A DNA stretch of 64,000 nucleotides from Lachnospiraceae bacterium (lineage in GTDB: Bacteria > Bacillota > Clostridia > Lachnospirales > Lachnospiraceae), in NCBI GenBank assembly GCA_017618075.1, contig JAFZUY010000050.1, positions 1 through 64,000 of the forward strand, read 5' to 3'. Of the stretch, positions 993 to 37,595 are shown one piece after another; position 1 is the first letter of the stretch; the number at the start of each line of letters is the position of its first letter. The notes under the pieces were generated by a model. It worked only from the letters and a program-made list of their open reading frames with translations. It did no database searches and was not told where the DNA came from. The translations under genes were made by a program, and so were the position numbers.

Positions 993-3900
993 CTATTCGT
1001 CTTCACCTGCAAAATCATTTACCGATTCATCTTCGTAAACGTACTCTTCTGAGTAATCGTCTTCGAATCTGTCATCGTTGTCTTCCTCACCGATTGTGTG
1101 CTCCGTGAAGCCCATCTCGGTCAGTTTCATGCCTTCATAATCTGCGGTGTCTGAATCGTCGCCCATTTCCGCACGGTATGTATTTGTACTAACTTCAGTA
1201 TTTTCAAGAAGCACTACTTCGTTGCCGTCTTCGTCGAGAACCTTAACATCAAGACAAAGTGACTGAAGTTCCTTAAGTAATACCTTGAATGATTCGGGTA
1301 TACCGGGTGTAGGAATGTTCTCGCCCTTGATAATTGCCTCGTATGTCTTTACACGACCTACAACGTCATCGGACTTAACTGTAAGGATTTCCTGAAGTGT
1401 ATAGGATGCACCGTATGCTTCAAGTGCCCAAACTTCCATTTCACCGAAACGCTGTCCACCGAACTGAGCTTTACCGCCGAGAGGCTGCTGAGTTACGAGT
1501 GAGTACGGTCCGGTCGAACGTGCATGGATCTTATCATCAACAAGGTGATGGAGTTTAAGATAATGCATGTGTCCGATGGTAACGGGTCCGTCGAAGTATT
1601 CGCCGGTACGTCCGTCACGAAGTCTTACTTTACCGTCTCTTGAAATAGGAACGCCTTTCCAGAGTTCTCTGTGGTCTCTGTTTTCATACAGATACTCGAG
1701 AATTTCAGGAAGAAGAACGTCTTTATATTTCTTTTCAAAATCTTCCCATGAACCGTTTACATAGTCGTTAGCCATGTCAAGCGTATCCATGATATCATTT
1801 TCGTTTGCGCCGTCGAATACGGGGGTTGCAATGTTAAATCCGAGAGCCTTTGCAGCAAGTGAAAGGTGGATTTCAAGTACCTGACCGATATTCATACGGG
1901 AAGGAACGCCAAGAGGGTTAAGCACGATATCAAGAGGACGTCCGTTAGGAAGATAAGGCATATCTTCTACAGGAAGAACTCTTGAAACAACACCCTTGTT
2001 ACCGTGACGTCCGGCCATCTTATCACCTACAGAAATCTTTCTCTTCTGTGCGATGTAAATTCTGACCTTCTGATTAACTCCGGGTGAAAGTTCGGAATCG
2101 CCCTGAGCACGTGAGAATACCTTGGCATCAACTACTACACCGTATTCACCGTGAGGTACCTTAAGAGATGTGTCTCTTACTTCTCTTGCCTTCTCGCCGA
2201 AGATTGCTCTTAAGAGTCTTTCTTCGGGTGTTAATTCTGTTTCTCCCTTAGGAGTAACTTTACCTACAAGGATATCGCCCGCACGAACCTCTGCACCGAT
2301 ACGGATGATACCATTTTCGTCAAGGTCTTTACGTGCATCTTCGCCGACACCGGGAAGATCTCTGGTAATCTCTTCGGGTCCGAGCTTTGTATCTCTTGCT
2401 TCTGTTTCATATTCTTCAATATGTACAGATGTGTATACGTCTTCTTTTACGAGTCTTTCTGATAAAAGAACAGCATCCTCGTAGTTGTAACCTTCCCAGG
2501 TCATGAAACCGATGAGAGGGTTCTTACCTAAACCTAATTCGCCGTTAGCGGTTGAAGGGCCGTCTGCGATAACCTGACCTGCTTCAACATGGTCGCCCTG
2601 GAATACGATAGGCTTCTGGTTGTAACAGTTGCTCTGGTTACTTCTTGCGAACTTGGAAAGTTTAATATCTTCTTTTGTGCCGTCATCATATGTCATCTTG
2701 ATTAAATCAGATGCAACATAATCGATTGTACCGGCTTTCTTTGCTACCTTACATACGCCTGAGTCAACAGCCGCCTTAGCTTCCATACCTGTACCGACAA
2801 CGGGTGCCTCGGTAAAGAGAAGGGGAACTGCCTGACGCTGCATGTTCGAACCCATGAGGGCACGGTTAGCATCGTCGTTCTCAAGGAAAGGAATAAGTGC
2901 TGTAGCTACCGAGAATACCATCTTAGGAGATACGTCCATGTAATCGAACATAGCCTTGGGATATTCATGTGTTTCTTCTTTGAAACGACCGGTAACCATC
3001 TTTCTTACGAAATGGCCTTCCTCGTCGAGTTTTTCGTTAGCCTGTGCTACATGATAGTTATCTTCTTCGTCTGCTGCCATGTAAACAACTTCATCGGTTA
3101 CACGAGGATTCTCGGGATCGGATTTGTCAATCTTTCTGTAAGGAGCCTCGATAAATCCGTACTCATTAATTCTTGCATAGGAAGCAAGTGAGTTGATAAG
3201 ACCGATGTTAGGACCTTCGGGCGTCTCGATAGGACACATTCTTCCGTAATGTGTATAGTGAACGTCTCGAACTTCGAATCCGGCACGATCTCTTGAAAGA
3301 CCGCCGGGTCCTAATGCCGAAAGACGTCTTTTATGAGTAAGTTCACCAAGAGGGTTGTTCTGGTCCATGAACTGTGAAAGCTGTGATGAACCGACGAATT
3401 CCTTCATGGCTGCCTGTACGGGCTTGATATTTACAAGACTGGAAGCTGATACATCGTCTGCATCATGTGTGGTCATTCTTTCACGAACAACTCTTTCCAT
3501 TCTTGAAAGACCGATTCTGTACTGGTTCTGGAGAAGTTCTCCGACAGCACGAATACGTCTGTTGCCTAAGTGGTCGATATCGTCCTTATTGCCGATACCG
3601 TACTCAAGATGTAAGCAGTAGTTAATACTTGCAAGGATGTCTTCCTTGGTAATGTGCTTGGGAATAAGATCAGCGATATTGTTCTTGATAGCATCGCCGA
3701 GCTCTTCGGGCTTTTCAGCATATTCGCCGAGGATTGTCTGAAGTACGGGGAAGTAAACGAGTTCGGTAATACCAAGCTCTTCCTTGTCGCAGTCAACCCA
3801 CTCGGAAATATCAACCATCATGTTGGAGAGTACTTTTACGTTTCTTTCTTCTGTCTGAATAAGAACGGAAGGAACAGCGGCGTTCTGAATCTTTGTAGCA

Positions 3901-5995: not shown

Positions 5996-6045
5996 TTTCT
6001 TTTTTTCCTCCTTCTTTATTTTGATTGCCGAAAGAGTTTATTGAA

Positions 6046-6163
6046 TAAAAAATCTCCCGCCGACAAAGCGAGAGAGCAAAATTTAATCCAAAACTTTTCT
6101 CCTCGGTAGGCGATTACACTTACGTCTTTCGACACCTACTGTCTTCGGCATGGTCTGACGACC
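6046..6163 (-). promoter_or_regulatory. L10 ribosomal protein leader with intrinsic attenuator
   Basis: Read on the minus strand, the leader contains GAAGACAGTAGGTG and, further on, CGCCTACCGAGGAG. These are the paired conserved blocks of the Firmicutes L10 leader. It ends in a 7-bp stem (6054-6060 with 6068-6074, one G-U) followed by a run of six T at 6047-6052 (plus-strand A), which is an intrinsic terminator. Binding of L10 is known in the family to shift folding towards termination; use of that mechanism here is inferred. Confidence 0.88.
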
Positions 6164-6169
6164 TTTTCT

Positions 6170-15985: not shown

Positions 15986-16981
15986 TTAAACTTCGTAATA
16001 CTTGGTATCAAGATATTCAACATATTTTCCGGTACCGATGGCAACGCAGGTCAAAGGCTCGTTTGCGGTGTTGGTTTCGATACCTGTCTTGATCTCGATT
16101 AAGTCCTCGAGACCTCTTAACATTGAACCGCCGCCGGTTAAAACAATACCACGTTCTGCGATATCTGCGGAAAGTTCGGGCGGAGTTTTTTCAAGTACGG
16201 AGTGGATGGCGTCAACTATCTGTGTGGTAGTTTCCTTTAAAGCCTCTTCCATTTCCGTTGATGTAACGGTAACAGTGTTGGGAAGACCTGATAAAACATT
16301 GAGACCCTTAACTTCCATAGAGTCTTCCTCAAGTCTTCTGTAAGCTGAACCGATCTTTATCTTGATATCCTCGGCTGTTCTTTCACCGATGGATAAGTTG
16401 TGTTTTCTCTTAATGTATCTTGCGATAGCTTCATCGAAATCATCGCCTGCAATCTTGATGGATTCGGATACTACGGTACCGCCGAGTGAAATAACTGCGA
16501 TATCCGTTGTTCCGCCGCCGATATCGACAATCATGTTGCCGCAGGGCTTTGAAATATCGATACCTGCTCCGATAGCTGCTGCAATAGGCTCCTCAATAAT
16601 GGAAACATCTCTTGCACCGGCCTGATATGTAGCATCAAGTACAGCCTTTCTTTCAACTTCGGTAACACCCGAAGGAACGCAGACTGCTACTCTGGGCTTT
16701 CTGAACATTCTTCTGCCGACTGCCTTCTGGATGAAATATTTCATCATTTTCTCTGTAACGGTATAGTCGGAAATAACTCCGTGTCTAAGAGGTCTTATCG
16801 CCTGAATAGTACCGGGTGTACGGCCAATCATAAGTCTGGCCTCTTCACCGATAGCTCTAATTTTATTTGTATCTTTATCAAAAGCCACTACTGAGGGCTC
16901 TTTTAAAACAACGCCCTTGTTCTTTACATAAACAAGTACTGACGCTGTACCTAAATCAATTCCTAAATCAGAATTCTGCAT
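15986..16981 (-). CDS. mreB: Rod-shape actin homologue MreB/Mbl
   Basis: This is a bacterial actin that positions wall synthesis along the cell cylinder. The actin-fold motifs are IGIDLGTA-like (LGIDLGTASVLVYV), the phosphate-2 loop DIGGGTTDIAVISLGG and the adenosine motif GGGSMLRGL. The 331-aa length is typical. No mreC or mreD follows, so this may be an Mbl or MreBH paralogue rather than the mreBCD copy. It has its own promoter at 17028-17055 and a strong ribosome site AAGGAGAGG. Confidence 0.94.
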   Translation of the reverse strand: MQNSDLGIDLGTASVLVYVKNKGVVLKEPSVVAFDKDTNKIRAIGEEARLMIGRTPGTIQAIRPLRHGVISDYTVTEKMMKYFIQKAVGRRMFRKPRVAVCVPSGVTEVERKAVLDATYQAGARDVSIIEEPIAAAIGAGIDISKPCGNMIVDIGGGTTDIAVISLGGTVVSESIKIAGDDFDEAIARYIKRKHNLSIGERTAEDIKIKIGSAYRRLEEDSMEVKGLNVLSGLPNTVTVTSTEMEEALKETTTQIVDAIHSVLEKTPPELSADIAERGIVLTGGGSMLRGLEDLIEIKTGIETNTANEPLTCVAIGTGKYVEYLDTKYYEV

Positions 16982-17027
16982 TTCTATATCCTCTCCTTAA
17001 CGCAGTAACGCATAATAATCTATGATG

Positions 17028-17055
17028 ATTATACTCCAATGCGCGAAAAAATCAA
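17028..17055 (-). promoter_or_regulatory. Promoter for mreB
   Basis: On the minus strand TTGATT (17050-17055), a 16-base spacer and a perfect TATAAT (17028-17033) lie about 50 bases before the mreB start. Confidence 0.7.
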
Positions 17056-17073
17056 ACTTAAAATATGACGAAC

Positions 17074-17228
17074 GCTGTGGGGGTACCGCACGATACTACG
17101 CGGGCACGCTCTCGCTAAGATGTCTCACGTAGCGGCTGCTAAATTCGACTTCGCATTAAAATGCTCGTCTCATTAAGCACCGACGGAGCCATATTACCCG
17201 CTAAAGCATCATACGGTACCCCCACAGC
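17074..17228 (-). ncRNA. Candidate structured RNA or palindromic repeat between uvrA and mreB
   Basis: Outer arms 17074-17104 and 17197-17228 pair over about 24 bp plus a further GCGGG/CCCGC helix. The first 15 bp are perfect. On the minus strand the three deviations further in are G-U wobbles; on the plus strand the same positions would be A-C mismatches. An inner hairpin (17137-17179) has helices TGCT/AGCA, AAT/ATT, GAC/GTC and GCATT/AATGC, separated by GA/GA and GA/GAA loops that could form sheared G-A pairs only on the minus strand. It begins 15 bases after the uvrA stop and ends just before the mreB promoter. No U-run follows, so it is not a plain terminator. I cannot assign a family; a MITE-like repeat is the alternative. 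Confidence 0.55.
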
Positions 17229-17243
17229 TGTGCATTGATATTT

Positions 17244-20093
17244 TTATTTATTCTTTTTGAGCATTTTAGCGATATATTGGCCTGTGAAGGACTTTTTGTT
17301 TTTGGCTACTTCTTCGGGTGTGCCTGTGGCGATAACTGTACCACCTCCATCGCCACCTTCGGGTCCTAAATCGATTATATAGTCAGCAGTTTTAATTACG
17401 TCCAAATTGTGTTCGATGACGATAACCGTGTTGCCGGCATCTGTAAGTCTCTGAAGAATGTCAACAAGTTTGTGTACATCCGCGAAATGAAGACCTGTTG
17501 TAGGCTCATCCAGAATATAAATGGTGTTGCCCGTTGAGGCGCGGCTTAATTCCGTAGCGAGTTTGATACGCTGTGCCTCACCGCCGGAAAGCTGGGTTGA
17601 AGGCTGGCCGAGTCGGATGTAGGAGAGGCCTACATCGTTTAATGTCTTCATCTTTTTCTTGATGGAAGGTATCGCATCAAAGAAATCGAGTGCTTCGGCT
17701 ACAGTCATTTCGAGTACATCGGAAATGCTCTTGCCCTTGTATTTTACTTCGAGTGTTTCTCTGTTGTATTTCTTGCCTCCGCAGACTTCGCAGGGAACAT
17801 AAACGTCAGGAAGGAAGTGCATTTCAATCTTTACGATACCGTCACCCGAGCAGGCTTCACAACGGCCACCTTTTACGTTAAACGAAAATCTGCCCTTCGC
17901 ATATCCTTTTGCTTTTGCATCTTTAGTTTCGGCAAAAAGAGTTCTGATAAGATCGAATACTCCGGTGTAAGTCGCAGGGTTTGACTTAGGAGTACGTCCG
18001 ATCGGAGACTGATCAATGTCGATGACCTTGTCAAGCTTCTTAATGCCTTTTATGTTTTTATGCTTGCCCGGTACACACTGCGCGCGATTTAAATCTCTGG
18101 CAAGTCTCTTGTATAAAATCTCATTGATAAGTGAACTCTTGCCCGAGCCTGAAACACCGGTTACACATGTGAATACGCCAAGCGGTATATCTACATCAAT
18201 ATTCTTTAAGTTGTTTTCCGCAGCGCCCTCGATTGTAATGAAATCTTTGGGCTTTCTTCTCTCTGTGGGAACGGGTACGAAAAGGTCGCCCTTTAAATAC
18301 ATACCGGTAATAGAGTCGGGACAGTTCATGATGTCTTCTGCCGTACCGCATGCAACGACCTGACCGCCCTTTTCGCCGGCCAGAGGTCCGATATCCACGA
18401 TGTAATCCGCCTGAAGCATAGTATCTTCGTCGTGCTCAACGACTATAAGATTGTTGCCCAAATCTCTTAATTTTTTAAGTGATGCGAGGAGCTTGTCGTT
18501 GTCTCTCTGATGAAGACCGATACTCGGCTCGTCGAGAATATATGTTACGCCTACAAGGCCTGAACCAATCTGTGTGGCAAGACGGATTCTCTGTGCTTCG
18601 CCGCCCGAAAGAGTTGCAGTCGGACGCGACATTGCAAGGTAGCCAAGACCAACATCCATTAGGAAACCTACACGGGAACGGATTTCTTTTAGGATCTGAT
18701 TTCCTATAAGGGCAGCGTTGCCTGTAAGCTCCATTTCGGTAAAGAACTTATGCAGTTCGCCGAGAGGCATCTGCGTTACTTCGAAAATGTTTTTATCATT
18801 GACGGTAACCGCGAGTGAAGTCTTTTTAAGTCTCATACCCTTACATTCTGCACACTCTGTGTCGGACATGTATTTCTCATATTCGAGTCTCGCACTTTCA
18901 AACGGTGTCTGACGATATCTGTCTACGACGTTTTTATAAAGACCTTCGAACTGAATGGGATATACTCCTCTTCCTCTCGAGCTCTCGTAATAAACGTCTA
19001 CAAATTCATTGGTTCCGTTGATGATAATGTCCTGTATCTTTGCAGGCAGTTCCTCAAAAGGAGTATCAAGCGAAAACTTAAAATGCTTTGCAAGTGCCGT
19101 TAAAACGCCGTTTGAAAATGAACCGTCGTTCTTGCTGTTTTTCCAGCCGATGACCTGAATCGCACCCTCTGATAAAGAAAGTGAGCGGTCGGGAATCATC
19201 AGGTTGATGTCAAATTCTCTCTTAAATCCGAGACCGTCGCACGCAGGACATGCGCCGAAGGGATTGTTAAACGAAAAGCTTCTCGGCTCTATTTCGTCGA
19301 TGCTGACACCACAGTCGGGACATGAAAACGACTGGCTGAAATTGTATTCCTTGCCGTCGGAATCAGCCACAGTAAGAAGGCCTTCGGAGAGCGCGAGTGC
19401 ATTTTCCACGGATTCCGTCAGTCTGCTTTGGATATCTTCTTTTACGACGAGTCGGTCGATAACGATATCGATATTGTGCTTTATGTTTTTATCAAGTTTG
19501 ATTTCTTCGTCAAGCTCGTATAAGTTTCCGTCGATTCTCGCACGAAGATAACCGCTCTTTGCGGCTCTGGTTAAAAGCTTTTCGTGCTCGCCCTTTCTGC
19601 CTCTGATAACAGGAGACAATACCTGAATCTTGGTACCTTCGGGAAGTGATAAGATTCGGTCGACCATTTCGTCGACAGTCTGTCTGGAAATCTCCTTACC
19701 GCATTCGGGGCAGTGCGGAATACCGATTCTCGCATAAAGAAGTCTTAAGTAATCGTAAATTTCTGTAACGGTTCCGACCGTAGATCTCGGGTTTCTGTTC
19801 GTGGACTTCTGATCGATACTGATGGCAGGTGAAAGACCCTCGATGAATTCGACATTGGGCTTTTCCATCTGTCCGAGGAACTGTCTCGCATAAGACGAGA
19901 GCGATTCCATATATCTTCTCTGGCCTTCGGCGTAAATCGTATCAAACGCAAGTGACGATTTGCCGGAGCCCGAAAGTCCCGTGATAACTACAAATTTGTT
20001 TCTCGGGATTTCCACATTCAGACTTTTTAAATTATGTTCTTTTGCACCTACTATCCTGATAACATCGGATTTCGGAAGCATCTTCTCAGCCAT
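17244..20093 (-). CDS. uvrA: Excinuclease ABC subunit A
   Basis: UvrA is the damage-recognition ATPase of nucleotide excision repair (949 aa, normal). It has two ABC modules with Walker A motifs [14 protein letters not shown] and [14 protein letters not shown]. The signatures are LSGGEAQRI (twice), and there are two zinc modules, CPECGKEI and the CEACSGDGI...[10 protein letters not shown] pair. It begins one base after the uvrB stop with GAGGAATAAT before the ATG, so it shares the LexA-controlled uvrB promoter. A structured element follows its stop. Confidence 0.98.
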
Positions 20094-37523: not shown

Positions 37524-37595
37524 AGCGCCATCGCCAAACGGTAAGGCAACGGACTCTGACTCCGTCATCTCAAGGTTCGAATCCTTGTGGCGCTG
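37524..37595 (+). tRNA. tRNA-Gln (anticodon CTG)
   Basis: A complete cloverleaf: 7-bp acceptor AGCGCCA/TGGCGCT, D arm GCC/GGC, anticodon stem ACGGA/TCCGT with loop CTCTGAC (anticodon CTG, reads CAG), T arm CAAGG-TTCGAAT-CCTTG, and discriminator G. CCA is not encoded. It stands alone between its own promoter and terminator. Confidence 0.96.

Follow-up and report, generated by a model that had tools for sequence, protein, structure and literature searches.

Introduction

The hairpins of REP repeats are roughly 20–40 nt long. In its main text, PMC2817692 describes REP/BIME sequences as inverted pairs that are separated by spacers of varying length and that carry complementary changes in their stems. 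A second described group comprises the mobile/repeat sequence candidates (MRSCs) of Narunsky et al. 2024, such as MRSC-65-2, of which the main text of that study (PMC11109978) counts 250; the criteria given there are many copies per genome, a covarying structure, and an orientation that is inconsistent with that of the genes, the candidates are described as "often" lying near transposase, integrase, nuclease or helicase genes, and the authors leave undecided whether the RNA or the DNA form is at work. In addition, the main text of a survey of the human microbiome (PMC8040213) reports 250 palindromic structured candidates, 20 of which are not predicted terminators and are possibly REP sequences.

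Here, we describe an element that lies between presumed uvrA and mreB-like genes in a stretch of Lachnospiraceae DNA of 64,000 nucleotides, which at its full length is referred to as "the window". We consider it probable that this element is a dispersed and probably non-autonomous chromosomal repeat of the Lachnospiraceae that works like REP/BIME, and, judged from its sequence, it looks more like a spreading repeat kept in shape by evolution than like a one-off regulatory RNA. The element family was not found described in the titles and abstract openings covered by our literature search, and passages of PMC11109978, PMC8040213, PMC8632094 and PMC2817692 make no mention of it; the family is apparently undescribed. 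It reaches dozens of copies in many Lachnospiraceae genomes and has no match in Rfam 15. It also carries a caution, namely that an intergenic element should not be taken for a regulatory RNA on the strength of covariation only.

Fold and Position of the Element

The original prediction had placed a palindromic element at 17074..17228, and these coordinates are exact. The minus strand of this stretch folds with a minimum free energy of −86.5 kcal/mol (z = −10.0, equalled by 0 of 200 shuffles), and the plus strand folds too (z = −7.2); our covariance model R1, whose training includes this copy, matches at 17084–17218 on the minus strand with 145.9 bits. The parts of the fold are collected in Table 1. 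In the outer stem P1, 17228–17205 pairs with 17097–17074 over 24 bp. The outermost 15 bp contain no deviation, and the G-U pairs number exactly three (17213/17089, 17211/17091 and 17207/17095), all as originally described for the minus strand. We note that G-U is the commonest state across the genus at these three positions (16, 20 and 28 of 33 copies), and that the three pairs are thus not independent evidence at this copy. The predicted GA/GA and GA/GAA internal loops are present in the minus-strand fold, where they are formed by 17171–17170 with 17146–17145, and by 17166–17165 with 17152–17150, respectively. The second hairpin that had been proposed, GCTA/TAGC, does not appear in the consensus, and the alignment gives GC[GAGA]GC at 17115–17108 instead.

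Table 1. Positions in the window of the element, its parts and its neighbors.
Feature	Position	Strand	Basis
Dispersed structured element, this copy	17074..17228	minus	folding, DNA search, covariance model
Outer stem P1, 5′ arm, 24 bp, outer half variable	17205..17228	minus	fold and alignment
Outer stem P1, 3′ arm	17074..17097	minus	fold and alignment
P2 5′ arm GCGGGTA, genus-conserved	17195..17201	minus	alignment, covariation
P2 3′ arm TGCCCGC, genus-conserved	17100..17106	minus	alignment, covariation
Inner stem 5′ strand (ATG..CTCCGTCGGTGCT), strong covariation	17176..17192	minus	alignment
Inner stem 3′ strand (AGCA..CCG..ACG..GAG..CAT)	17120..17140	minus	alignment, covariation
Apical hairpin; GA/GA tandem in a Y-GA-R context, GA/GAA loop variable	17142..17174	minus	fold, consensus
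Mini-hairpin GC[GAGA]GC	17108..17115	minus	alignment
Promoter-like site before mreB, TTGATT-16-TATAAT, 3′ of the element	17028..17055	minus	sequence scan
Gene upstream of the element, presumably uvrA	17244..20093	minus	
Gene downstream of the element, presumably mreB-like	15986..16981	minus	

That the element is not a plain terminator was borne out, as a sequence scan of 16900–17500 at this copy returned 0 terminator-like sites, and the copy does not combine a GC-rich stem with a U-run in the manner of an intrinsic terminator. A promoter-like site 5′ of the element on its strand was likewise not found in 17229–17500 at this copy. As for the mreB promoter that had been predicted just after the element, a promoter-like site is indeed found there (Table 1), and a similar sequence also follows the element in close sister genomes, but such matches in the scanned region of the window are not above those in shuffles (2 vs a mean of 1.5).

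The Rfam covariance search that the original prediction had called for, run over the whole window with 4227 families, gave no match to the element at gathering score and, within 17050–17250, none at E ≤ 5, with 6S and raiA included. The window's only two gathering matches are a ribosomal protein L10 leader (RF00557, 74 bits, 6038–6166 minus) and a tRNA gene (37524–37595 plus), which ARAGORN gives as tRNA-Gln.

Copy Number and Distribution

The element's own genome holds at least 8 copies, which DNA search placed on 8 contigs (79–100% identity, in addition to two self-matches of the arms), the seven other copies being 79–95% identical to this one. The same search of 41 genomes found matches in 18 of the 25 from the genus and in 0 of the 16 from the order's other families, with 58 matches located in 57 loci. 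With the R1 covariance model, copies were found in 27 of 31 genus genomes (own genome included) at 1–55 each, such that copy number within one genus spans 0 to 55 per genome.

At wider range, R1 was positive in 63 of 150 genomes of the family, the own genome included, which corresponds to 62 of 149 genera; in 16 of the 246 genomes sampled from the order, every one a member of the Lachnospiraceae; and in 5 of the 398 sampled from the phylum, namely four Lachnospiraceae and G775, which belongs to another class and has 9 copies over 6 contigs. These wide samples were searched with strict filters and with the best 8–22 candidates per genome scored, which makes the counts lower bounds that weak matches may escape. 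A pattern scan of named genomes gave at least 120 stretches; the 80 loci listed are all titled Lachnospiraceae, Eubacteriaceae, Agathobacter or Coprococcus, and among the matches listed are many element-bearing contigs of the MAG CANRVK01, as well as the cultured carriers Lachnospiraceae NC2004 and Coprococcus comes. The element is nearly confined to one family of gut bacteria, the Lachnospiraceae, within which copies are intergenic and dispersed and copy number is lineage-specific. Viral contigs gave no match to one exact pattern, and phages and plasmids gave none to blastn with one genus copy, searches that distant forms could escape; the lack of plasmid and phage copies counts against mobility, as it is atypical of mobile elements.

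Covariation and Consensus Fold

The wider set contained 191 matches, of which we kept the 35 that had E ≤ 1e-24, did not run past the locus at either end and shared less than 95% identity with one another; L045 and L046 were then removed by hand to give an alignment of 33 copies. The consensus fold has 48 pairs. Paired cells amount to 96.4%, vs 82.9% in shuffles and at most 48.6% with partners slid, and there are 213 doubly changed cells vs 54.3 in shuffles; further pair types are barely raised (71 vs 64.6, reached by 10 of 500 shuffles). The covariation of this complex fold is strong. Together with the lack of an Rfam match, this supports the original prediction of a structured, possibly undescribed motif. 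The DNA search and covariance model that had been suggested to follow it up yield a dispersed repeat with at least one two-sided change in 32 of the 48 pairs.

By simple ungapped extension, P1 is 23–26 bp long in 19 of the 33 copies and 20–26 bp in 24 of them; in five copies the extension stops at 15, halted by an indel, or by an internal loop in the case of L020. The outer half of P1 keeps its pairing with unconserved sequence, and within the genus no part of the element is less conserved than the outermost arms. The genus consensus core reads CCGTCGG..CTTAAYGAG / CGARTTTAG..CCGYTACG, plus TTAGC[GNRA]GCGTGCCCGC, with CUUAAYGAG/CGARUUUAG as its internal loop, and the alignment backs pairing of CUACG with the CGUCGG side as well as the GC[GAGA]GC mini-hairpin. 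Of 123 aligned copies, 112 have a GNRA loop on this mini-hairpin (32/33 and 80/90) and none has GNYA, and in L036 the GNRA arm bears an extended hairpin.

Gene Context and Orientation

Neighboring genes were called with a simple ORF caller, and both neighbors were called for 55 genus copies (L001–L065). Relative to the element, these neighbors are same/same in 31 cases, opposite/opposite in 19, same/opposite in 5 and divergent in 0; a divergent call was also obtained for the genus copy L069, with ORFs that overlap the element. For comparison, 3 of the window's 18 intergenic regions of at least 60 bp are divergent, as are the placements of 19 of 89 copies in non-genus loci. When 13 orthologous groups are collapsed by hand, the genus sites come to about 12 sense and 13 antisense, and orientation is identical within 13 of the 13 groups in which species share a site, which indicates that much of the distribution is vertical. 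Antisense copies retain the pairing of the same strand as sense copies do. This, taken together with the neutral orientation, argues against the originally offered interpretation as a 3′-UTR-derived sRNA, as does the finding of a multicopy intergenic repeat.

A bias with respect to the replication strand was rejected, as flank GC skew shows no consistent trend: in the genus 37 of 56 copies have a positive value, and outside it 56 of 122. In G206, 3 of the 20 loci taken (L208, L216 and L218) lie near tRNA genes. The outer stems of L024 and L048 resemble a T arm, and a tRNA reading was discarded with no tRNA found at either.

Site History between uvrA and mreB

The uvrA–mreB site was examined in 29 loci. 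The element is present there in G000, G004, G006, G010, G020 and G023; the uvrA gene end was not located in G001, G005, G017, G019 and G041, and in G001 and G005 an R1 match lies at most 100 nt from the uvrA match. The G013 interval is without the element and also without some flank, and a clean empty site with a target-site duplication was not found. Right after uvrA, G044 (L234) has a short hairpin, GGGGATGCC-CGCGAAATATCGTGA-GGCATCCC, which by its sequence looks like what an internal deletion would have left of the element. Another hairpin, GGAGGTCTC..GTCTCC-TTTTT or a very similar form, lies between uvrA and mreB in L231, L232, L234, L235, L236, L237, L238 and L239. It is missing from the element-bearing G000, G004, G006, G020 and G023 and from the empty G013, and the G010 interval holds both this hairpin and the element.

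Orthologous copies provide insight into how the fold changes in place. The uvrA–mreB copies L001 and L021 share flanks and outermost pairs and differ at several P1 pairs, all of them standard, which points to compensatory change in place at a sense site. The antisense comparison of L027 and L031 is a thinner case, with one compensated pair and one pair that became a mismatch, and uncompensated mismatches occur in some orthologues (L018, L019 and L038). The copies in L005, L029 and L030 are identical across species, near flanks included. Some groups look, from their sequences, to have been reinserted or converted, as in the case of L022 in group g2 and of the cores of L045 vs L026.

Composite Pairs and Nested Remnants

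In G093, 26 of the 34 copies form 13 close inverted pairs, all minus then plus, such that the 5′ ends of the RNA face each other and the 3′ ends point outward, and two subtypes are joined in each of the 7 pairs read. Inverted pairs that face in this same way recur in CANRVK01, inverted pairs are also present in G206, and there are none among the separate-contig copies of the own genome. Several G093 composites have GTATAC-like words at both outer ends, where they resemble a terminal motif. The downstream flanks of L027, L028, L034, L045 and L051 hold remnants (3′ halves) of older copies right next to newer complete ones, a pattern that suggests that the same spots underwent nested insertion or conversion.

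We also considered an autonomous form, with a gene between two copies, and set it aside, as neither L206 nor L199 holds an obvious transposase. The ORF between two copies in L206 (753 aa) is presumably cell-surface-like. In L199 (G093:C3:158400-163300), the ORFs at 1872–3090, which we take to encode HTH and ImmA/IrrE-like proteins, have on either side a copy of one and the same subtype in direct orientation, and the flanks suggest that one of these copies is inverted relative to the usual composite.

Possible Strand Dependence of the Pairing

In 26 genus copies, G-U exceeds A-C by 36:6 at mostly Watson–Crick pairs and by 110:7 over all pairs; with conserved wobbles counted, the ratio is 69:3 in 17 sense copies and 46:1 in 11 antisense copies. 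In 49 copies of other genera together it is 86:44, and by genome 39:20 in G093, 48:15 in G206 and 11:3 in G775, with no G-U excess in CANRVK01 (42:56) and a count of 24:21 in P1 of the family-wide alignment A2. Controls from the same family gave 65:12 for 6S and 18:11 for the L10 leader, and since the latter is a real RNA with so modest a score, the measure is weak either way. Taking these controls into account, the counts favor strand-specific folding in four of five lineages, weakly and in an alignment-dependent manner. A DNA-only reading, based on the near equality of G-U and A-C in the family-wide P1, is not decisive in view of the two controls and the per-lineage counts.

One rival reading, which we regard as possible though unlikely, is that the element acts for the host within transcripts, as a structured RNA present in many copies. 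Its ~24-bp stem, equal to about two turns of the helix, would then serve RNase III-type processing or 3′-end protection, and the conserved core would be a candidate protein-binding site. A stem that keeps its length with free sequence, the GNRA loop, the covariation seen between orthologues at one sense site, the genus G-U excess next to that of 6S, and the absence of divergent placement among the 55 genus copies, set against the window's own 3 of 18, are all in line with such a function. However, it would have to accommodate a neutral gene orientation, copy numbers of 0 to 55 among genomes of one genus, and divergent sites that do exist elsewhere (and, with overlapping ORFs, at L069), and the same-strand bias is shared by antisense copies, so that the signal need not stem from neighbor-driven transcription. 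The bias would also be accounted for if the element were recognized as a folded single strand while it spreads.

An account at the level of DNA, with a cruciform or bidirectional hairpin whose pairing is kept by selection on both strands or by template-switch correction of quasi-palindromes, appears to us quite unlikely. The CANRVK01 and family-wide P1 counts agree with it, and tandem GA pairs and GNRA-like loops are stable in single-stranded DNA too. It is harder to reconcile with the same-strand G-U preference in the genus, G093, G206 and G775, and with that of the 49 other-genera copies, although the L10 control makes this a weak measure; moreover, conserved wobbles persist, when correction would remove them. 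A MITE of the classical kind, moved by a DDE transposase that reads the sequence of its terminal inverted repeats, is what dispersed intergenic palindromes of lineage-specific copy number might otherwise point to. It is already disfavored and very improbable, given that conservation in the genus is lowest in the outermost arms, that no constant target duplication was seen, and that no flanking transposase was recognized by eye in the 45 largest neighbor clusters. The original alternative of a MITE-like repeat nevertheless came closer than the sRNA, in that the element is a dispersed repeat, even if its copies are not near-identical, have changed in a compensatory manner and are not clearly flanked by target-site duplications. 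The original observation was partly confirmed and its interpretation partly supported.

Candidate Partner Enzymes and Proposed Mechanism

Y1_Tnp (PF01797) was found in 7 of 14 genomes, some of which are incomplete drafts (89% for the own genome). It is absent from G000, G005, G041, G206 and G219, which carry 8–45 copies, whereas G045 has the gene but yielded no copy of the element; a RAYT/Y1 transposase as the mover is disfavored by this comparison of presence with copy number. Y1-family transposase genes (open frame of 256 aa) occur in L259 and L260 (G020 and G023), flanked by GGGGACGGTTC palindromes. The same palindromes flank the element on both sides in L005, L029 and L030 and on one side in L004, L039 and L042, and their presence at the Y1 gene and at few copies indicates nesting rather than dependence. 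Inspection by eye of the 45 largest clusters of 1225 neighboring ORFs revealed no recurrent partner gene and no transposase-, integrase-, nuclease- or helicase-like cluster. The largest of these clusters covers 30 loci and is presumably UvrA, perhaps with other ABC ATPases.

Returning to the element as a REP/BIME-like repeat, copies would spread within genomes and occasionally between lineages, through a candidate trans-acting enzyme that may recognize the folded single strand, either as ssDNA or as an RNA copy. Recognition would depend on the ~24-bp stem length and the conserved core and not on the stem sequence, and copies that come to lie after genes would then be kept, being either tolerated or mildly useful as hairpins at mRNA 3′ ends. 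We can also conceive, as a rather doubtful extension, of an undescribed class of structured mobile nucleic acid, a bacterial counterpart to SINEs in its manner, whose spread would depend on a folded strand of ~155 nt. This strand would combine a branched core, capped by GNRA, with a helix measured by its length, and a putative enzyme would move it, possibly through RNA. As the covariation resembles that of an ncRNA despite the gene-neutral orientation in the genus, the question of RNA, ssDNA or DNA hairpin becomes testable and points to an enzyme.

Comparison with Known Systems

Like REP/BIME, the element consists of dispersed extragenic palindromes in many copies, with inverted pairs in G093, CANRVK01 and G206. 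It differs from them in being ~155 nt long with a branched core, where REP is a short hairpin; in missing the GT(A/G)G head that precedes the short GC-rich hairpin of REP (the A1 consensus has variable arms and a branched core); and in lacking, in several copy-rich genomes, the Y1/RAYT genes with which REP/BIME are associated. From MITEs and enterobacterial RU repeats, which in the text of the sources compared are likewise small, dispersed, intergenic and likened to MITEs, it is set apart by terminal arms that vary and yet covary, with no related transposase or target duplication found; the conserved terminal inverted repeats that a MITE shares with an autonomous transposon are not seen here.

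With respect to the human-microbiome survey, we compared the element with the four palindromes pictured in its main text, which are mostly or wholly from Bacteroidetes, and overlap with the others is possible. The copy number and inconsistent orientation of the element are those of the MRSCs as the main text of PMC11109978 defines them. MRSC-65-2 is described there as a single long stem with UYCCGG repeats, found in diverse phyla, and by this description the element is distinct from it, with a branched core, no UYCCGG repeat in the consensus and a distribution in nearly one family. In our best reading of these comparisons, the element would be placed with the REP/BIME-like and MRSC repeats, as a variant with a branched core.
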